From assembly GCA_946415785.1 (NCBI GenBank), contig CAMKTV010000006.1, positions 1 to 47,548 of the forward strand: a stretch of 47,548 nucleotides of DNA. Reading direction: 5' to 3'. The notes beneath the pieces were generated by a model. The model saw only the letters and a program-made list of their open reading frames with translations, was not told where the DNA came from and searched no databases. This document shows, one piece after another, positions 15,801 through 25,053 of this stretch (position 1 is the stretch's first letter; the number at the start of each line of letters is the position of its first letter). This DNA comes from an uncultured Solobacterium sp. Its GTDB lineage: Bacteria; Bacillota_I; Bacilli_A; Erysipelotrichales; Erysipelotrichaceae. The position numbers and the translations under genes were made by a program.

Positions 15801-16185
15801 TTGTGGAATCAGAAGGTATTAATCCTTCATTTGGATGTTCAGACATTATCATATTACAAAAGGCATCGATAGTGCCCATGAAGGCTAAGTCAATGTTTTG
15901 TAAGGCATGAACATATCTGTCTTTATATTCAGTATCTTTTAATGATTCTTCAATCAATTTATTTTGAAATCTTTCATAGAATTCATTGGCTGCAGCTTTG
16001 GTAAAAGTGATGGCTGAGATATGAGAGATATCTTTTCCTTCTTCAATTAGTTTAACCATTCTTGAAACTAAGGCTGTTGTTTTACCAGAACCGGCACCAG
16101 CTTCCACAAAATAATTTTCATTGATATTAGAAGTTATTTTCTTGCGAGAGCTTTCATCAATTTTAATTTGTTTATCAAATTCCAT
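12886..16185 (-). CDS. addA: AddA-like ATP-dependent helicase/nuclease subunit A
   Basis: This 1099-aa UvrD-type helicase carries a C-terminal RecB-family nuclease. Walker A A-G-A-G-S-G-K-T-T is at residues 29-37. Walker B D-E-F-Q-D-T-D-P is near 378 and G-D-P-K-Q-S-I-Y-R-F near 413. Motif VI Y-V-G-A-T-R-A-K is near 822. The nuclease residues lie in G-I-I-D-L-I-Y-E (about 1040) and I-D-W-K-T-N-K (about 1058). With AddB it processes double-strand DNA ends for RecA loading. It is somewhat shorter than typical AddA (about 1200 aa). Its ATG overlaps the addB stop (TAATG), preceded by GGAGGG, so the two are made together. Confidence 0.9.
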   Translation of the reverse strand: MEFDKQIKIDESSRKKITSNINENYFVEAGAGSGKTTALVSRMVKLIEEGKDISHISAITFTKAAANEFYERFQNKLIEESLKDTEYKDRYVHALQNIDLAFMGTIDAFCNMIMSEHPNEGLIPSDSTIIDEETANELYKKEYANILNGYYNDDLTEEAKEFMRFHRFPEDAFVLTLNSLLRHRDCEMVVPPYIKVDTDTEYEDEIKTVRKIVKVLKDNPNFISSSNEDNAKVLRENFNNYSSYFYDSWEDNISNILFAYKQTFGKKDFRLFNDALVRNALEEGIDYFVEHQGRSHHYELNKEKLLLIFKELMDRQYAITLNLANDAKPRILEKLRKQGFLTFNDYLIYLRDTLRKDAVNGGKLIKHIYERHKYFLIDEFQDTDPIQAEIFFYLAAEDIKPNWKDCIPHKGSLFIVGDPKQSIYRFKNADVASYLNVEKMFKQPVGEVLHLYKNFRSTSDLKDWFNNTFEDLLIESDNQAKFEPMPNDIKEDIKTFSGVYKYDAENTDDQAEVKDIILKLYDNDKYQILDKRKDKNGNIEIVKRRIKWDDFMIITPTKGCIPKYTKEFRNSGIPCFVEGNINFEESKAFKSFMNFFAAVSNPSDNRYLYASLKSGLFNIKEKDITEAKKNGYYFNVLNDVTDLNISEELKYALRLLNQYAKEAKVLTSSSLFTKIINNVEAFKKQGTENMEYVYFALELLKEKENSKEIITHNDAITFFEKLLYESNNQERCPGLERNLNKVHIANLHKVKGLEKAVVILVHPKKNKKPGDFRLERLDTGNKGYLFKVSDGYITIIETDKYKDPHGEIENECTDAENKRLQYVGATRAKNVLIIANKLTKTGLAQSNPWYDLLEGSYKKLTDIKTLLATDSAKEKKPKITDYNLLSKNVFDENKDTLEKSKIKLFNPSKVIDDNQMDEIEEIDEKTQKQLYESSGDSLATVSGTMVHRLMEVIINSKNQCVRDELIEFVLNDEMVTGFEEYLNDFRLMLGKVYDVMNSGGFKQINGAASNILPILFKADNVYTEVPFTYKTKDNKLWNGIIDLIYEVDGKLHIIDWKTNKTDVGLDKHYRNQLDAYMEATKQLIGKDAEDALIYHIDIN

Positions 16186-18710
16186 TATTCGCCCTCCATC
16201 TTTTCTTCTTTTCCTTTTCCACAGATCTTCTCTAATTTACAATAACGACAATTTCTTTGATCGCCAGTTAAAGGGAAGTCACCTGTATCTAAGGCATTTT
16301 TAATTTCTTGTAACTTTTCTTTTAGTCTATTTTTGATAGGTTCATCAAAGTCACATTTGATAGTTCTGACATTACGTAAATAACGATATTCACAAGATTC
16401 AACTTCTTTATTGTTTTGATTTTCATAGATATAGGCATACAGTAAAACTTGGAAACAGGTATCTACATCATTGTCATGATTTTTAACTGATTTATAGGTC
16501 TTATAATCAATAATCTGGTATTTGCCATTTTCAAGTTCTTCAATTCTATCAACTATACCACCAAAAGTTAAACCCGTTATTGGATCTATATATGGTCCAA
16601 GATTTGCTTCAGAGGCAACAACTTTATTTCCTGGATTATTCTTATATCCTGTTTCGGCCATCTTTAAGAAATCATTTTTTATTTTTTCCATATTTTTAGT
16701 ATGAACCGGATTACGCTTTTTGAAATATTTATTAAATTTATATTCTGCATTTTCCATAAATGTTTCTTTTGACCAGCTTGGATTATCACCATAATCTTGC
16801 ATACATTCATGAATCAAACTACCTTCATCATTATCAGGTATTAAGACAAAAGGATCATTGTCAGCTGGTTCTTCAATACCAAGAATCTTCGCAAGATAAA
16901 AGTGTCGTGGGCAGGCAAAGAAAACATCAGCTGCACTTGGACTAATTGATCTATTAAGAATAGAGCTAGTGTAAATTTCTTGTGTTTTTTCTCCGGCAAC
17001 AATTGTGTTTCCTTTTATATATGCTTCACCAATATTTTTAAGTCTAGAAATATTTTCCAAGAAGTAACGACATTGTTCGCCAGTTGCGTCTTTTAAATTA
17101 TCTGTAGTGACATTATCGCCATTTTCTTTTTTATATATTTCAAATACTAATGATGAAGGATTCTCTTTCTTTAATTCACTTAAGTTATATCCAGAATATG
17201 AAACATGAATCCTAGAGTCGCATGAAGAAGCGTTATCTAAAACATCCATTAATAATTTTTTGTTATTCATGATCTTATTTTTAGAATTCTTAACATTTTC
17301 TTCATTAAAACGTTCTAGATCAGAATCTAAAAGCAGATAATTTTCATTAGGTGAACCTGGGAAAACTTTCGCATTTAATCCACAGATAAAGATATGTTTT
17401 CTAATGGTAGCTAAAGCACCATTGAGATTTGTGATATGAATAGTATTTGGTTTTGATAATTCTTTAAAGATTCTTTTATCTAACAAATAATTAATGACAT
17501 CACTTAATGTTCCATTTGGTATATTAGAGAAATAATCATTTAAATAATCACCTATTATCTTAATAGCTTTATATTCAAAATCTGGTGAATTTATTTTGGT
17601 GTAGGTCTTAATTAAATATTCATAGCCCTGATACAATTCATTGCAGGCCTTTTCAATTAATGGATAAGTTTTCTTTTCATCATCACTATTTAAAGAATTT
17701 TTATAATCTGATAATTTATTATCTTTATTAACATTTATACGAAGATTACCAATGGTATTAATAATTTCAGCTTTTTCTTTATGATTTAATTTTGTATCAC
17801 TGACATTTACCCAGAATTTATCAGTATCAAATTCTTCTGCATTTATTAAAGCATTTAAACTATCAATGCCATTAAAGCCATCATTCCACCTATCTAATAA
17901 AACCAATAATTTAAAAGCATTCGCATAAGTTATATCTAAACCAGTACCAAAACTCATTGGTAAATTATATGTTTCTTTATAAGCTAAGAATTGATTTATA
18001 TATGATGGATCAATTAAGACAATTAGGGCATCTTCATAGGCAATCTTTTCTTTAGCGATATAAGCTAAAATATGTTCAACTTCATTTATGGCACCATAGG
18101 CGTCTGTATATGTTGTATCAGAAAGTTTTTTATATTTTATTCCTGCAAAGTCTCTAATCTTAATAGGTTTAATTCTTTGACCAGAAACAGTTTTTAATAA
18201 TTCTTCTTCTAATGGCTCAAGTGGTGTTTCTTCAAAGACAATAAATTCTGCATCTATTTGTTTAGCATTTTTAATCGCATAATTAATAATGCCTACTGAA
18301 TCAATATAATTGTTGTCTTTTAAATACTCAAGATATTTATGATAAACATCTAAAATGGCATTATTCTTTTCTTTAAATTCACCATCCTTAAATACTTCAT
18401 TCATCTTTTTTTCTTCATTGCCTCTTGTAAGCATTCTGGCATAATTTAAAGAATTGGCGATATTTTTTGCGTCTTCAAATGTATTGCCTTCAAAATAAGG
18501 AACATTTTTTAATAGATTATAAATAATACCTTCCTGTTTAAAAGAAGAAATAGGCGTTTCTTTAATAATCTTGCCACTTCTGATTAAAACTTCTTTCGCT
18601 AATTTTATAGAATCAAAGATATGGACATTAAAAGAGCCTTTATCTTTAAGTGCTAAAGATCTTAACAATTCTCGCTCATTTATATTACTTAATATTATTT
18701 TTTCTTTCAT
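16185..18710 (-). CDS. addB: AddB/RexB-like nuclease subunit with Fe-S cysteines
   Basis: The protein has 841 aa, markedly shorter than Bacillus AddB (about 1150). The C-terminal PD-(D/E)xK nuclease is visible: I-I-D-Y-K-T-Y-K near residue 735 and Q-V-L-L-Y-A-Y following. The four cysteines expected for the AddB [4Fe-4S] staple are present: one in F-F-A-C-P-R-H-F (about 598) and C-x2-C-x5-C near 816-825. The N-terminus lacks a Walker A motif, as in RexB. Its place immediately before addA with a one-base overlap supports the AddAB/RexAB assignment. The upstream sequence has only a weak SD. Confidence 0.82.
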   Translation of the reverse strand: MKEKIILSNINERELLRSLALKDKGSFNVHIFDSIKLAKEVLIRSGKIIKETPISSFKQEGIIYNLLKNVPYFEGNTFEDAKNIANSLNYARMLTRGNEEKKMNEVFKDGEFKEKNNAILDVYHKYLEYLKDNNYIDSVGIINYAIKNAKQIDAEFIVFEETPLEPLEEELLKTVSGQRIKPIKIRDFAGIKYKKLSDTTYTDAYGAINEVEHILAYIAKEKIAYEDALIVLIDPSYINQFLAYKETYNLPMSFGTGLDITYANAFKLLVLLDRWNDGFNGIDSLNALINAEEFDTDKFWVNVSDTKLNHKEKAEIINTIGNLRINVNKDNKLSDYKNSLNSDDEKKTYPLIEKACNELYQGYEYLIKTYTKINSPDFEYKAIKIIGDYLNDYFSNIPNGTLSDVINYLLDKRIFKELSKPNTIHITNLNGALATIRKHIFICGLNAKVFPGSPNENYLLLDSDLERFNEENVKNSKNKIMNNKKLLMDVLDNASSCDSRIHVSYSGYNLSELKKENPSSLVFEIYKKENGDNVTTDNLKDATGEQCRYFLENISRLKNIGEAYIKGNTIVAGEKTQEIYTSSILNRSISPSAADVFFACPRHFYLAKILGIEEPADNDPFVLIPDNDEGSLIHECMQDYGDNPSWSKETFMENAEYKFNKYFKKRNPVHTKNMEKIKNDFLKMAETGYKNNPGNKVVASEANLGPYIDPITGLTFGGIVDRIEELENGKYQIIDYKTYKSVKNHDNDVDTCFQVLLYAYIYENQNNKEVESCEYRYLRNVRTIKCDFDEPIKNRLKEKLQEIKNALDTGDFPLTGDQRNCRYCKLEKICGKGKEEKMEGE

Positions 18711-18823
18711 TATTATCTTAGTCTTTCTGCCTTAATAATATCATTTCATTTATATCAATTAAACTAACAGGGAAACGATTGTATAACCTGTCATATTTTT
18801 TGTCTTTTTAATGTCATTTTTCA

Positions 18824-18851
18824 TTGACCACCTATATTTAAAAAATATAAA
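18824..18851 (+). promoter_or_regulatory. Promoter of the mgtE leader
   Basis: TTGACC (18824-18829), 16-base spacer, TATAAA (18846-18851). The predicted +1 near 18858 places the AGGAGG of the leader ORF (18862-18867) almost at the 5' end of the RNA. Confidence 0.65.
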
Positions 18852-18876
18852 ATTAAAGCGCAGGAGGAAAACATTT

Positions 18877-18948
18877 ATGGATGTTCATTTATGTGAAAAT
18901 TCTTATACTACCGATTTAGATGAGCACCCGAATGTTGCGCTCATTTAA
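18877..18948 (+). CDS. Leader peptide ORF (23 codons) upstream of mgtE
   Basis: The ORF starts at ATG 18877 with a perfect AGGAGG (18862-18867) 9 bases upstream and ends at TAA 18946-18948, 24 bases before the mgtE start. Residues 1-12 include His4, Cys6 and Glu7; residues 13-18 read D-L-D-E-H-P, an acidic cluster followed by proline. Known Mg2+ leader peptides such as enterobacterial MgtL contain acidic/Pro motifs that destabilise ribosomes when Mg2+ is low, so a comparable role is plausible. No homology to MgtL is claimed. The last third of the ORF lies inside a long hairpin. Evidence is the SD, spacing, position and structure; expression is untested. Confidence 0.6.
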   Translation: MDVHLCENSYTTDLDEHPNVALI

Positions 18949-18972
18949 ATCGTCTTTAAAAGGAGGAAGACG
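18912..18972 (+). promoter_or_regulatory. Two overlapping hairpins in the mgtE leader (putative attenuator)
   Basis: Hairpin 1 pairs CGATTTAGATGAGC (18912-18925) with GCTCATTTAAATCG (18939-18952), 14 pairs with one G-U, covering the end and stop codon of the leader ORF. Hairpin 2 pairs CGTCTT (18951-18956) with AAGACG (18967-18972) and puts the mgtE AGGAGG (18961-18966) in its loop, directly before the ATG. The two share the bases CG at 18951-18952 and would compete. A ribosome ending at the leader stop would open both. There is no U-tract, so control of translation, or of Rho access, is more likely than intrinsic termination. Confidence 0.6.
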
Positions 18973-20307
18973 ATGAAAGAAAAAATCATAGAATACTTAG
19001 CTAATGAAGACTTTAAGGAATTAAAAAGTTTTTTAAGTGATGCCAACGAAGCAGATATAGCAGAATGTTTGGATGAATTAGACAAGAATGATCAGGCCGT
19101 TGTCTTTAGATTATTAAAGAAAGATGAAGCAACTGACATTTTTGCGAGAATGGATCCAGATACTCAAGAAAACTTAATTGAGACATTGAGTGATAAAGAA
19201 ATTGCCAGCATCATTTCAAAGATGTACATCGATGATGCGGTTGATTTGATTGATGAATTGCCCGCAAATCTTGTAACAAGAGTATTAGATAACTCTTCAG
19301 TCACAAAAAGACAGGCTATCAATGAAATGCTGAAATATCCAGAAGATTCTGCTGGATCAATTATGACAACTGAGTATGCTCAACTAGATGAAGATGATAC
19401 TGTTGAAGATGCTTTCGATAAAATCAGAAGAAAAGGTGTCAATAAAGAAACTATCTATACCATCTATGTAACTGATAGTGGTGATAGACATTTAGTCGGT
19501 GTTACATCTGCTAAAGATTTATTGTTGGCAGATCCTAAGACTAAGATAAAAGACATCATGGAAGAAAATGTCATTTCAGTAACTACTAATGAAGATAAGG
19601 AAGAAGTTGCGAAGATGTTCGATAAATATGACTTCTTAGCTATGCCAGTAGTTGATTCTGAAAATCGATTAGTTGGAATCGTCACAATCGACGATGCCAT
19701 GGATGTCATGTCAGAAGAGAATGAAGAAGACTTCGAAAAGATGGCTGCTATGGCGCCTTCTGAAGAAGACTATATGAAAGAATCAGTTTTCTCTCAATAT
19801 AAGAATAGAATTGTCTGGTTATTAGTCTTAATGTTAAGTTCAATCGTAACAGGAAAGATTATTACAGGCTATGAGAACGCTTTTGAAGCATTGCCAATTC
19901 TGGTTTCATTTATTCCAATGATTATGGATACTGGTGGTAACTGTGGCTCACAGGCTTCTACCATGGTCATAAGAGCATTAGCTACTGATGAAGTAGAACC
20001 TAAAGATATATTAAAAGTATGGTGGAAAGAAATAAGAATTGCGATGTTAGTTGGTGGAACATTGGCAATAGTTAATGGTGTAAGAATATTTATTCAATAT
20101 CATGATTTACCATTATCAATTGTTATAGGTATTACTTTACTATTTACCGCAATGTTGGCAAAATCTCTTGGATGCATTCTTCCAATATTGGCCAAAGCCT
20201 TAAAACTAGATCCGGCATATATGGCATCACCAATGATTACAACAATGGTTGATGCATGTAGCTTAGTCATCTTCTTCAATGTTGCCTTGATGTTGATGAA
20301 TATATAA
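18973..20307 (+). CDS. mgtE: Magnesium transporter MgtE
   Basis: The protein has 444 aa with the full MgtE architecture. There is an N-terminal superhelical domain (about 1-130, D-L-I-D-E-L-P and similar acidic repeats) and a CBS-domain pair (about 135-255, including T-I-Y-V-T-D and M-P-V-V-D-S). A plug helix follows, then five transmembrane helices (about 280-444) with the ion-pathway signature M-D-T-G-G-N-C-G-S-Q-A-S. MgtE is a homodimeric Mg2+ channel whose cytosolic domains close it when Mg2+ is high. An AGGAGG lies 6 bases before the ATG, inside the loop of a leader hairpin. The gene is monocistronic, ending at a terminator. The leader with its own small ORF suggests Mg2+-responsive translation control. 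Confidence 0.95.
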   Translation: MKEKIIEYLANEDFKELKSFLSDANEADIAECLDELDKNDQAVVFRLLKKDEATDIFARMDPDTQENLIETLSDKEIASIISKMYIDDAVDLIDELPANLVTRVLDNSSVTKRQAINEMLKYPEDSAGSIMTTEYAQLDEDDTVEDAFDKIRRKGVNKETIYTIYVTDSGDRHLVGVTSAKDLLLADPKTKIKDIMEENVISVTTNEDKEEVAKMFDKYDFLAMPVVDSENRLVGIVTIDDAMDVMSEENEEDFEKMAAMAPSEEDYMKESVFSQYKNRIVWLLVLMLSSIVTGKIITGYENAFEALPILVSFIPMIMDTGGNCGSQASTMVIRALATDEVEPKDILKVWWKEIRIAMLVGGTLAIVNGVRIFIQYHDLPLSIVIGITLLFTAMLAKSLGCILPILAKALKLDPAYMASPMITTMVDACSLVIFFNVALMLMNI

Positions 20308-20323
20308 AGTGTATTAAAAAATG

Positions 20324-20349
20324 AGCTATCTAGAAAAGATAGCTTTTTT
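20324..20349 (+). terminator. Terminator of mgtE
   Basis: AGCTATCT / AGATAGCT stem of 8 bp with a 5-base loop, followed by six T residues (20344-20349). Confidence 0.9.
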
Positions 20350-20350
20350 G

Positions 20351-20379
20351 TTGACATAGCATAATACAGATAATACAAT
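20351..20379 (+). promoter_or_regulatory. Promoter of the GntR-ABC operon
   Basis: TTGACA (20351-20356), 17-base spacer, TACAAT (20374-20379). The -35 is perfect. The spacer end, -10 and start site lie inside four tandem 9-bp repeats. Confidence 0.85.
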
Positions 20380-20398
20380 TAATACAGATAATACAGAT
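20363..20398 (+). repeat. Four tandem 9-bp repeats, probable operator of the GntR regulator
   Basis: The units are AATACAGAT, AATACAATT, AATACAGAT, AATACAGAT, end to end from 20363 to 20398. They overlap the -10 and the predicted +1 (about 20386) and end one base before the SD. This is a likely site for autorepression by the YtrA-type regulator encoded next. YtrA-family operators are usually inverted repeats, so a direct-repeat operator would be unusual. Confidence 0.6.
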
Positions 20399-20410
20399 AG
20401 GAGGTAAATG

Positions 20411-23119: not shown

Positions 23120-23125
23120 ATCTTT

Positions 23126-23355
23126 AATAACAAAGAAAAGAAGAGTACTTTAAAGGAAACTTATAGAGAGTCCTGCTTGGTGGAAAGGGACAGCGAAGTT
23201 TAAAGGAAGATGGTCTTGGAGTTGATGATGCGGTGAGTTTCGTCCGGAGTGCACACGTTATAGTGCTAGAGCATGATGGTGCTTGAAGAAGGTGTAGAAA
23301 TACACGAATTAAGGTGGTAACACGTTTAATAGACGTCCTTATGGGCGTCTTTTTT
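23126..23355 (+). ncRNA. T-box riboswitch, candidate methionine specifier
   Basis: The ordered T-box elements are visible. The stem I distal AG bulge and loop are AGAGAGTCCTGCTTGG then TGGAAAGGGAC (about 23165-23191). AAACTT pairs with AAGTTT (about 23157-23202). An ATG at 23210-23212 stands where the specifier codon is expected and is followed by a purine. Stem III is GTGTA-GAAA-TACAC (23292-23305). The T-box is AAGGTGGTAACACG (23311-23324). Its TGGT would pair with an NCCA end preceded by A73, fitting tRNA-Met. The terminator is GACGTCC-TTAT-GGGCGTC (23332-23349) with six T residues. Uncharged tRNA-Met would stabilise the antiterminator and switch on metNIQ. The T-box differs from the common GGTGGNACCGCG at two positions. 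Confidence 0.88.
23332..23355 (+). terminator. Regulated terminator of the T-box
   Basis: GACGTCC / GGGCGTC, 7 bp with one G-U pair and a TTAT loop, then six T residues. Its 5' arm follows the T-box sequence closely enough for an alternative antiterminator. Confidence 0.85.
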
Positions 23356-23373: not shown

Positions 23374-24384
23374 ATGATTTCAATAATTAATGTTTCTAAG
23401 ACATTTAAAGGAAAGAATGATGTTAGTGCTGTAAAAAATGTGAGCTTAGAAATAAAAGATAAAGAAATATTTGGCATCGTTGGTTATTCTGGTGCTGGTA
23501 AGTCTACACTCATTAGACTTGTCAATCAGTTAGAAAAGGCTGATAGTGGCCAGATCTTAATTGATGGTGTTGATATTTGCGAATTAAAAGGTGAAGCTTT
23601 AAGAAAACAAAGACAGGAAATAGGCATGATATTCCAGCACTTCAATCTGTTATGGTCAAAAACAGTTTTAGAGAATATCATGTTTCCACTTGTCTTAAAA
23701 GGTCTTCCTAAAAAAGAAAGAGAAGAAGAAGCTATTAAGATGGCTAAAGAAGTAGGACTAGAAGATAAATTAGATGTTTATCCTAGCACCTTGTCTGGTG
23801 GGCAGAAACAAAGAGTTGCGATAGCTAGAGCTCTAGTATTAAATCCAAAAATATTATTATGTGATGAAGCAACTTCAGCACTTGATCCTAAGACTACAGA
23901 AGAGATTCTTGAATTATTAAAGAAAATAAATAAAGAATATGGCTTAACAATTCTGATGATTTCTCATCAGATGGAAACGATTCAAAAGATATGTCATAAA
24001 CTAGCAGTCATGGCTGATGGTAAGATTGTTGAACAGGGAAGTGTTGATGATATCTTCGCTAATCCAACAGATCCATTAACTAAAGAACTAATCCAGACAG
24101 TTGATACTGGTGTTGATGTGAATAAACTATCGATTGAATTAAAAGATAAATATCCACAGGGACATTTATTAAGAATTACTTTCTCTGATAAAACTTCAGA
24201 AAAACCAATTCTTTATAGCATCGCCTTAAAATTAAACATTCCGATTAATATCGTATCGGCAAATTTAAAGATGACACAGGCTGGTTCACTTGGAGTAATT
24301 TATATTCATATTGAAGAAAAGAAAGATATTGGGCCATTCTTGGCAGAACTGGAATTACAGGGATTGAAAGTGGAGGTGGTGTAG
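23374..24384 (+). CDS. metN: Methionine ABC transporter ATP-binding protein MetN
   Basis: The protein has 336 aa. Walker A G-Y-S-G-A-G-K-S-T is at residues 37-45, the Q-loop in M-I-F-Q-H-F-N-L-L, the signature L-S-G-G-Q-K-Q-R near 141, Walker B L-L-C-D-E-A-T-S-A-L-D-P near 162, and the C-terminal NIL domain from about 255, which in MetN binds methionine and inhibits transport. AGGAGG lies just before the ATG. It is the first gene after the T-box and abuts metI. Together with MetI and MetQ it imports D/L-methionine. Confidence 0.95.
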   Translation: MISIINVSKTFKGKNDVSAVKNVSLEIKDKEIFGIVGYSGAGKSTLIRLVNQLEKADSGQILIDGVDICELKGEALRKQRQEIGMIFQHFNLLWSKTVLENIMFPLVLKGLPKKEREEEAIKMAKEVGLEDKLDVYPSTLSGGQKQRVAIARALVLNPKILLCDEATSALDPKTTEEILELLKKINKEYGLTILMISHQMETIQKICHKLAVMADGKIVEQGSVDDIFANPTDPLTKELIQTVDTGVDVNKLSIELKDKYPQGHLLRITFSDKTSEKPILYSIALKLNIPINIVSANLKMTQAGSLGVIYIHIEEKKDIGPFLAELELQGLKVEVV

Positions 24385-25053
24385 ATGTTAGGACTATTAA
24401 CTAAATTAAAAGAGCCACTTATTGAAACATTGTTGTTAACTTTTGTTCCACTAATAATTTCAGTAATATTAGGATTTCTATTTGGCACATTAGTATTTAT
24501 CAGTAGTGATTCAGGTATTATTGATACATCAAATAACTGGGGCTTAAAAATATTAAATAAGATTAGTAATGCGATCATAAATATCTTTAGATCTGTTCCA
24601 TATCTGATTATTCTTATCTGGTTACTTCCAATTACTAAATTATTGGTTGGCAGAATCCTTGGCTGGCAGGCAGCTATCCCATCACTTGTGGTAAGTGCTA
24701 CACCATTCTATGCCAGAATGACAGTCATTGCCTTTAGTGAAGTAAACAAAGGAACAATCGAAGCCAGCAAAGCACTTGGTGCCAACAACTTCGAGATAAT
24801 CTTTAAAGTCTTACTTCCAGAAAGTAAGCCAGCATTATTATCAAGTATTGTTGTTACAGCGATTAATCTGATTTCATATAGTGCAATGGCTGGGGCAATT
24901 GGTGCAGGAGGCTTAGGATATGAGGCATATCAATATGGCCTTATAAGAGAGAATCCGCCATTAATGTATATGGCAACACTCTTGATTGTATTATTAGTAT
25001 TTATTATTCAATTCGTTGGAGATTTAATTGTAAGAAAAGTGGATAAAAGATAG
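24385..25053 (+). CDS. metI: Methionine ABC transporter permease MetI
   Basis: This 222-aa permease has five or six helices and the MetI features: R-S-V-P-Y-L-I-L near residue 73 and the cytoplasmic EAA loop E-A-S-K-A-L-G-A-N near 128-136, which contacts MetN. The final G-A-I-G-A-G-G-L-G-Y segment is also characteristic. The start codon follows the metN stop directly, with GGAGGTGG inside the end of metN as SD. Confidence 0.94.
   Translation: MLGLLTKLKEPLIETLLLTFVPLIISVILGFLFGTLVFISSDSGIIDTSNNWGLKILNKISNAIINIFRSVPYLIILIWLLPITKLLVGRILGWQAAIPSLVVSATPFYARMTVIAFSEVNKGTIEASKALGANNFEIIFKVLLPESKPALLSSIVVTAINLISYSAMAGAIGAGGLGYEAYQYGLIRENPPLMYMATLLIVLLVFIIQFVGDLIVRKVDKR

Follow-up and report, generated by a model that had tools for sequence, protein, structure and literature searches.

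A probable Mg2+-responsive translation attenuator of the mgtQ type upstream of mgtE in an uncultured Solobacterium, and early acidic leader reading frames before Mg2+ transporter genes of its relatives

The 8-amino-acid open reading frame (ORF) mgtQ of Salmonella, preceded by AGGAGG and carrying Asp2 and Glu5, governs mgtB translation through alternative stem-loops, 1:2 and 3:4 versus 2:3; mgtB expression is altered by start-codon mutants, by stem mutants and by replacement of the acidic codons, as described in the available passages of PMC8092293. For the leader peptide MgtL, the passages of PMC11282234 describe a drop-off of ribosomes at EPDP in low Mg2+ that raises transporter expression, and the model is repeated in those of PMC12421838. 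In E. coli and Salmonella, the leader ORF corL and two mutually exclusive structures precede corA, and translation of corL is inverse to corA expression (passages of PMC11552253). The M-box (ykoK, RF00380) governs an MgtE-type transporter in B. subtilis, and in mycobacteria an M-box riboswitch controls a small ORF; the passages of PMC12810186 do not mention a leader peptide that senses Mg2+. The mgtE motif RNA, a riboswitch candidate, is described from Thioalkalivibrio only (passages of PMC11109978). A literature search by title or the start of the abstract, mostly without subscription journals or bioRxiv, found no acidic/proline leader ORFs before mgtE or before corA of Bacillota. Here, a stretch of 47,548 nucleotides from an uncultured Solobacterium sp. 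(contig CAMKTV010000006.1; the whole stretch is called the window) was analyzed, and the subject is the short leader ORF and the surrounding RNA structure upstream of its mgtE gene.

It is probable that this leader is a Mg2+-responsive attenuator of mgtE translation, in which early acidic/proline codons would destabilise ribosomes in a manner similar to Salmonella mgtQ/mgtB. The mgtE transcript would start just 5' of a translated leader ORF, which would act as the attenuator. When the ribosome is absent, segments 1:2 and 3:4 of the leader RNA (Table 1) would be paired, and the mgtE ribosome-binding site would be partly closed. When well-initiating ribosomes stall on or leave the first five to seven codons (M-D-V-H-L-C), they would occupy segment 1; segment 2 would then be free to capture segment 3, most of 3:4 would be broken, and mgtE would be open. 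When ribosomes advance to codons 8-17, they would block 2:3, 3:4 would form, and mgtE would be closed. The signal would be low Mg2+, weakening ribosomes with an early acidic nascent chain (in the relatives, also one with proline), as for the enterobacterial MgtL and MgtQ. We infer that the leader ORF is translated and that, in these bacteria, ribosomes become unstable on its early codons; Mg2+ is likewise taken to be the signal, with low Mg2+ presumably turning mgtE on.

Compared with mgtQ-mgtB, as far as the cited passages describe it, the window leader has a similar layout, a short ORF with AGGAGG, Asp2 and a further early acidic residue. The logic is also similar: 1:2 and 3:4 compete with 2:3, 3:4 hides the transporter ribosome-binding site, and control is at the level of translation, all of which is predicted for the window. 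Unlike mgtQ, which encodes 8 amino acids inside the mgtCBRU operon and serves MgtB, the window leader is longer, apparently heads a transcript of its own, and precedes the unrelated MgtE family in Bacillota. An early acidic/proline leader peptide is shared with mgtL-mgtA of Enterobacteria, and the MSPEPE of the CorA leaders described below resembles EPDP (passages of PMC11282234). However, mgtL acts through Rho-dependent transcription termination, whereas the predicted output here is sequestration of the ribosome-binding site, with an intrinsic terminator in few relatives. Similarly, corL is Rho-dependent and has few proline or acidic residues in the passages of PMC11552253, unlike the MSPEPE leaders before corA of the relatives. 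The M-box, which is absent from the window, is a ligand-binding RNA and shares the type of target, MgtE. The Thioalkalivibrio mgtE motif resembles the window leader as a structured RNA spanning the mgtE Shine-Dalgarno sequence (SD) and AUG; a leader ORF is not mentioned there in the passages of PMC11109978.

A conserved ORF, conserved alternative pairings and a codon-dependent fold switch were computed for this leader. The minimum-energy fold without a ribosome consists of 1:2 plus 3:4. Pairing 1:2 (18870-18891 with 18917-18936) is the main element of the unconstrained fold, and the loop of hairpin 3:4 (18949-18957/18966-18974) holds most of the mgtE SD; the stem of this hairpin includes the A and U of the mgtE start codon. 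Hairpin 2:3 has 14 base pairs (18912-18925/18939-18952), one of them G-U. The hairpins 2:3 and 3:4 overlap at 18949-18952, where the letters are CGAT in segment 2, ATCG in segment 3 and CGAT in segment 4. The equivalents in L035 are GACAA, TTTGTC and GACAAA, and those in L036 are alike. The letters of both differ from the window in all three places, which indicates that segments 2, 3 and 4 changed together. The minimum free energy of the leader is -31.8 kcal/mol (z -3.45), and none of 200 shuffles was as low; z was -4.10 for the stretch with the 14-base-pair hairpin alone (1 of 200 shuffles) and -2.66 for the hairpin 3:4 stretch (2 of 200).

Some match to the mgtE query was found in 35 of the 36 genomes of the genus, and a close mgtE (E 1e-170 or better) was found in 9. 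The same type of leader ORF is present in eight of these nine (L001, L003, L004, L005, L032, L034, L035 and L036), among which MgtE identity to the window is 62-88%. The ninth, L033, has a different acidic leader, MEVPDHLRC. The eight members share the start MD[VD][HP]LC[NE]; as judged from these sequences, a short ORF with its ribosome-binding site is conserved 5' of mgtE, as expected of a leader attenuator. The alignment of the eight leaders has no insertions or deletions (indels) in codons 1-18; the indels are in the 5' end and after codon 18. At Asp2, Leu5 and Cys6 the residue never varies, and the codon of each differs synonymously in a single member; codons 8-12 are freely variable. The early acidic residues of the window peptide are Asp2 and Glu7, so that the peptide has an acidic start, with Asp2 in 8/8 members. 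Residues 13-18 follow [DSN][LI]D[EG][HY][PS], which is fairly conserved and mostly acidic with one proline; the replacements across the eight are Asp13 to Ser or Asn, Leu14 to Ile, Glu16 or Gly16, His17 to Tyr and Pro18 to Ser. Across the genus, 7 of 10 MDVHLC-type DNA matches precede mgtE. The other three, GMD[VL]HLCKPVDP or GIDVHLCKPVDP within sensor-kinase/response-regulator genes, were set aside as coincidence.

RNAalifold predicted 1:2 and 3:4 from a structure-blind alignment of the eight leaders, with 6 of the 24 pairs changed on both sides. On this structure, 95.8% of the cells were able to pair, versus 33.5-49.7% with slid partners. None of 500 shuffles attained the covariation score, and 2 of 500 attained the number of both-sided pairs; since the structure was derived from the alignment being tested, the pairing statistics are favoured. 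In the folds of the single sequences, both-sided changes were found at 10 of 25 positions for 1:2, 9 of 21 for 2:3 and 7 of 13 for 3:4. Pairs in such folds are standard by construction, and the weight therefore lies in the shared positions. Blocking the first codons makes each of the eight fold into 2:3, and a ribosome on codon 18 makes each fold into 3:4.

The free energy needed to open the SD-to-AUG stretch of mgtE was computed for every codon of the leader with a ribosome that covers 31 nucleotides. When its P site was on codons 1-5, opening cost 2.3-5.8 kcal/mol in 8/8 members, and on codons 9-16 it cost 8.3-14.3 kcal/mol, again in 8/8. At codon 6 the cost was 3.6-5.9 kcal/mol in seven members. 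In the window, the energy steps from 4.0 at codon 7 to 8.9 at codon 8, which places the end of MDVHLC about where the open state ends. The energy was 6.8-14.0 kcal/mol on codons 13-18, the modelled site being closed on codons 13-17 in 8/8, and it dropped again from about codons 20-22. The model thus predicts 2:3 and a more open mgtE site when codons 1-5 are occupied, and loss of 2:3 with a closed site when codons 8-17 are occupied. The difference between mid codons (10, 13 and 16) and early codons (2, 4 and 6) was 5.1-8.8 kcal/mol in the eight members. When the stretch between both ribosome-binding sites was shuffled 60 times per member, the means were -0.7 to -1.4, and the real value was reached by 0 of 60 shuffles in each of the eight. 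In this modelling, alternative RNA structures are chosen by the position of the ribosome, as in leader attenuators.

The original prediction, which had been made from the window alone, had described the perfect AGGAGG, the short ORF with DLDEHP at residues 13-18 and the 14-base-pair hairpin over the end of this ORF; all of these were seen directly. Its second hairpin, with the mgtE SD in the loop, was found with most of the SD in the loop, but it shares four bases with the first hairpin instead of two. The two competing hairpins are indeed present around the mgtE ribosome-binding site; pairing 1:2 had been overlooked. The promoter given at 18824-18851 is present as a promoter-like site, which ends at 18853. 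The lack of an M-box was confirmed by an Rfam scan of the window, and the proposal of an acidic leader peptide of the enterobacterial Mg2+ transporter kind gained support. Conservation of the ORF and stems near mgtE and covariation in the stems had been named beforehand as checks; the ORF and the stems are kept beside mgtE in the genus relatives, and the stem covariation was as given above. The acidic/proline motif, for which conservation had also been asked, is fairly conserved in the genus but takes replacements there and was not seen in the leader listings inspected outside it.

Early acidic/proline leader ORFs recur before MgtE, CorA and MgtA-type genes in relatives. For mgtE, 222 upstream regions were collected, 199 were kept, and 171 were non-redundant. 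They were mostly from Bacillota, and the named contigs also included Synergistaceae, Synergistales, Spirochaetaceae and Treponema; the named loci were the best 80 of 585, and the order set comprised 60 chosen stretches among the matches listed, plus returned loci. The start of each mgtE was assigned from the SD and a tblastn match instead of annotation, and leader ORFs of 7-50 codons were picked by the best SD, blind to the peptide. A leader ORF was picked in 100 of the 171 upstream regions, and 45 of these 100 carry Asp or Glu at residue 2 (acid-2), versus 3 of 38 in reverse-complemented upstream regions and 109 of 1264 in shuffles (20 rounds). The share was similar by source, with 23 of 51 picks from 94 whole-genome loci and 22 of 49 picks from 77 named-contig loci. 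The codons at residue 2 are mixed (GAT 18, GAC 15, GAA 11 and GAG 1), and selection therefore appears to act on the residue. Leader starts outside the genus include MDERPRS, MEIPDN, MDEIPKS, MDDKPGG, MDNPGG, MDGRSR, MDAGSS and MDDGST, and the recurring feature is an acid at residue 2 with early Asp, Glu or Pro. DLDEHP was not seen in any of the leader listings inspected outside the genus. Three Clostridia records from a plasmid collection (L351-L353, with L351 taken from the match start) had no such leader ORF by the same picker.

The codon logic was computed outside the genus for the first 50 of 61 acid-2 loci, 33 of which passed the length and SD filters. The mean mid-minus-early difference was 2.4 kcal/mol versus -0.7 in shuffles, and 22 of the 33 leaders exceeded all 12 of their own shuffles. 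Terminators between the leader ORF and mgtE were found in 20 of 68 acid-2 loci (picked preferring acid) versus 18 of 340 shuffles. The terminator is disfavoured by ribosomes on early codons and favoured by later ones in L016, L024 and L025, and weakly, for codons 1-2 only, in L017, which agrees in sign with the codon logic above. In the other eight of the 12 leaders tested, ribosome position shifted the terminator by about 0.25 or less; no switch was evident in these, and a terminator-type output was set aside. Of 60 relatives scanned, 5 have an M-box upstream of mgtE, and four of these (L009, L090, L094 and L125) have the M-box and an acid-2 leader ORF in tandem before mgtE. In L125, a Clostridiales-1 RNA (RF01699) lies between the two. 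In L014, an M-box is followed, from position 1431, by an MCTDPDGN ORF with an SD, overlapping the mgtE start; with its early Asp-Pro-Asp, this is a possible leader that the picker missed. No M-box was found in 20 mgtE loci chosen for lacking a convincing leader ORF, and those mgtE genes may thus be under some third kind of control, or under none. Leader ORFs that overlap the mgtE start (MFYKDNDVPEPS and similar) were seen in L145, L146, L148, L149, L152 and L114, and this arrangement suggests translational coupling.

The same picker was applied to CorA, MgtA-type ATPase, SHMT and TrkH loci from the same family or order; the CorA loci were not made non-redundant, and L251 (CorA) and L311 and L315 (TrkH) were left out for in-frame stops. 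For CorA, 45 of 46 loci were usable and gave 29 picks, none of them acid-2. However, 19 of the 29 have at least three Asp, Glu or Pro in residues 2-8, and 16 of these 19 start with MSP[DE]P or MMSPDP. At the same threshold, the mgtE upstream regions gave 16 of 100 picks versus 32 of 637 in shuffled ones. The 12 usable MgtA-type loci gave 11 picks, with 6 acid-2 and 5 reaching this threshold. The SHMT control (30 usable loci, 13 picks) gave 2 acid-2 and 1 reaching the threshold, and the TrkH control (28 usable loci, 12 picks) gave 0 and 0. Among the 16 CorA leaders beginning with MSP, Pro3 is encoded by all four codons. In the 19 motif-bearing CorA leaders, which were chosen for the motif and profiled without a shuffle control, opening the corA site took less energy at codon 5 than at the peak within codons 9-19, the gap being at least 3 kcal/mol in 18 of them; the exception, L244, had a difference of 2.8 kcal/mol. 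CorA and MgtE are unrelated families, and the CorA leaders therefore seem to be a second, independent occurrence of this design within the order. The corA leader ORFs of 16-27 codons, mostly MSPEP/MSPDP and with a codon profile resembling that of the mgtE leaders, were seen at L227, L232, L233, L240, L241, L244, L336 and L339-L350. Early-acidic leader ORFs were also seen at the MgtA-type loci L293, L294, L297-L300, L302 and L303, with the starts MDLDSSSS, MSTGDPKP, MDEGPKPE, MMDAENGD, MDSDSHER, MEDSPHC, MDDYLS and MESGCS. At the TrkH-family K+ transporter loci L316, L322, L324, L326 and L328, an M[LQ]xELC ORF recurs about 70-90 nucleotides 5' of the start. For Bacillota as a whole, the balance tips slightly towards ribosome fragility on early acidic/proline codons being a general gauge of intracellular Mg2+. 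Such leaders, in which alternative hairpins would open the gene when a ribosome is within about the first seven codons, would have arisen before three unrelated importer families (MgtE, CorA and MgtA-type ATPases), either in place of the M-box or alongside it.

Several results weigh against a Mg2+-responsive attenuator in the window and its wider counterpart. Apart from Glu7, the window peptide carries a single early acid, and it lacks an early proline, which makes it weaker than the EPDP of MgtL; the conserved Leu5 and Cys6 hint at a more specific nascent-chain effect, and the pairing of segment 1 likewise constrains the N-terminal codons. In the window, 2:3 leaves 6 base pairs of 3:4 possible, with the SD in their loop. 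The model assumes folding at equilibrium and a footprint of 31 nucleotides. The ribosome-free leader is partly closed (4.2-7.7 kcal/mol), hardly above the early-codon state in L004 and L034, and L034 is already at 7.9 kcal/mol at codon 6. Occupancy of the last codons also opens the site, so a pause near the stop codon would act alike. One of the five covariation measures, further pair types, was equalled by 233 of 500 shuffles. Outside the genus, 71 of 171 upstream regions had no pick and 55 of 100 picks had no acid at residue 2; 11 of 33 leaders failed to beat every shuffle, six of the 33 have negative differences (lowest L111, -3.8), and only 4 of 12 terminator-type leaders had a codon-dependent terminator, one of them weakly.

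The same attenuator could respond to another signal, either a specific stall at MD[VD][HP]LC or slow decoding of codons 2-7 (e.g. with low charged Cys or His tRNA). The invariance of Leu5 and Cys6 as residues, each with one synonymous change, fits such a stall, as do PLC-like strings in other mgtE leaders (e.g. L191, L192 and the paralogue leader of L040). However, Cys, His and Leu are missing from many mgtE leader starts (MDERPRS, MEIPDN, MDEIPKS and MDDKPGG) and from the MSPEPE of CorA, and the common trait of the Mg2+ transporter leaders is an early acid or proline. This explanation is unlikely on the whole, yet a stall specific to the MDVHLC peptide, itself a mild acidic start, is a live rival. 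The original prediction had placed the sensing part at DLDEHP, so that slow or failing translation of codons 13-18 would pick the hairpin and raise mgtE translation. The fair conservation of this mostly acidic stretch with its proline speaks for it. These codons form segment 2, though, and a ribosome there blocks 2:3 in the model and leaves the site closed in all eight members, and mgtE would thus be shut by a pause at DLDEHP; the stretch also accepts replacements and is unseen in the leader listings inspected outside the genus. DLDEHP as the sensor is thus very improbable, and sensing more likely falls to the N-terminal codons.

It is very improbable, too, that 2:3 with the TCTTT that follows it is an intrinsic terminator, by which an early ribosome delay would end transcription and lower mgtE. 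A T-rich tract does lie 3' of 2:3, and a terminator-like call was made at 2:3 in L034 and L036. In the window, no terminator was called at the tail, which reads TCTTTAAAA, and the T-rich bases pair with the purine-rich SD side in 3:4, where 7 of 13 positions changed on both sides. The sign would also be wrong for an importer, and the separate terminators 3' of the leader, noted above for L016, L024, L025 and L017, are disfavoured by early ribosomes. The strong and conserved structure would suit an RNA-only element, a Mg2+-responsive fold or a thermosensor with the ORF untranslated. Against this stand the conserved SD, start codon and frame, codons 1-18 free of indels, the recurrence of the early residues at the amino-acid level among unrelated sequences, and the lack of any Rfam family at gathering score over the leader; of the explanations considered, it is the least probable.

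The features of the locus are collected in Table 1. The window mgtE matches the TIGR00400 equivalog with 487.9 bits versus a cut-off of 232.75, and on this sequence match its product is a Mg2+ importer, the kind of gene served by mgtL- and mgtQ-like leaders. Sigma-70-like matches in this AT-rich region numbered 24 versus 25.1 expected, and one match alone is not significant. TTGACC-N18-TA(A/C)AAT stands in L003 and L004 at a nearly equal distance 5' of the leader SD, and the mgtE transcript would start at about 18860, just 5' of the leader SD. In the window's assembly (1.37 Mb, 87.9% complete), no match was found for CorA, and none for an MgtA-type ATPase at E 1e-100, which leaves mgtE as the sole importer found there among these three families. 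No M-box (RF00380) was found in the whole window at the gathering score or in 18600-19100 at E up to 5, and the leader reached the gathering score of no Rfam family. A match of SSRC34_1 (RF02526) over the leader (E 0.39, 24.1 bits versus a gathering score of 64) was unlisted when a shorter stretch was searched and was judged to be chance, since its S. pyogenes reference locus adjoins an unrelated mannose phosphotransferase system gene. A match to the sR52 snoRNA was also judged to be chance.

Table 1 Features of the mgtE locus in the window.
Feature	Position	Strand	Support or remark
Promoter-like site TTGACC-N18-TAAAAT	18824..18853	+	10/12 consensus matches; L003 and L004 have a similar site
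SD of the leader ORF, AGGAGG	18862..18867	+	SD precedes the leader ORF in 8 genus members
Leader ORF, 23 codons, MDVHLCENSYTTDLDEHPNVALI	18877..18948	+	Homologue present in 7 relatives of the genus
Codons 2-7 (DVHLCE), proposed sensing stretch	18880..18897	+	Conservation; lower opening energies with a ribosome there
Segment 1, around the leader start; partner is segment 2 without a ribosome	18870..18891	+	
Segment 2, encodes most of DLDEHPNV; partner is segment 1 or 3	18912..18936	+	
Segment 3	18939..18957	+	18939-18952 pairs with segment 2, 18949-18957 with segment 4
Segment 4, extends into the mgtE start codon	18966..18974	+	
SD of mgtE, AAGGAGG	18960..18966	+	In loop and closing pair of hairpin 3:4
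mgtE, Mg2+ transporter, MgtE_N/CBS/MgtE domains	18973..20307	+	TIGR00400 equivalog
Intrinsic-terminator-like hairpin 3' of mgtE	20323..20345	+	
Divergent gene with PDDEXK_1 nuclease domain, other flank of the leader	16185-18710	minus	

Beyond mgtE, a strong promoter-like site (11/12) at 20351-20407 is overlapped by repeated TAATACAG units. The ORF just 3' of it is, we assume, a GntR-like regulator followed by ABC transporter genes, and the TAATACAG units before it are a possible autoregulatory operator. A T-box leader (RF00230, 100.9 bits) at 23124-23343 precedes an ORF pair at 23374-25053, which is presumably an ABC transporter.

If the attenuator reading is true, Mg2+ sensing by the nascent chain and ribosome destabilisation would reach beyond a few enterobacterial leaders, into another phylum and a major transporter family there. 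The model predicts that occupancy of codons 1-5 leaves mgtE more open and that occupancy of codons 8-17 closes it. Within the order, the parallel at CorA would provide an independent second system for the generality of early acidic/proline Mg2+ sensing. The attenuator would also suggest a route of regulation for mgtE genes that have no M-box.

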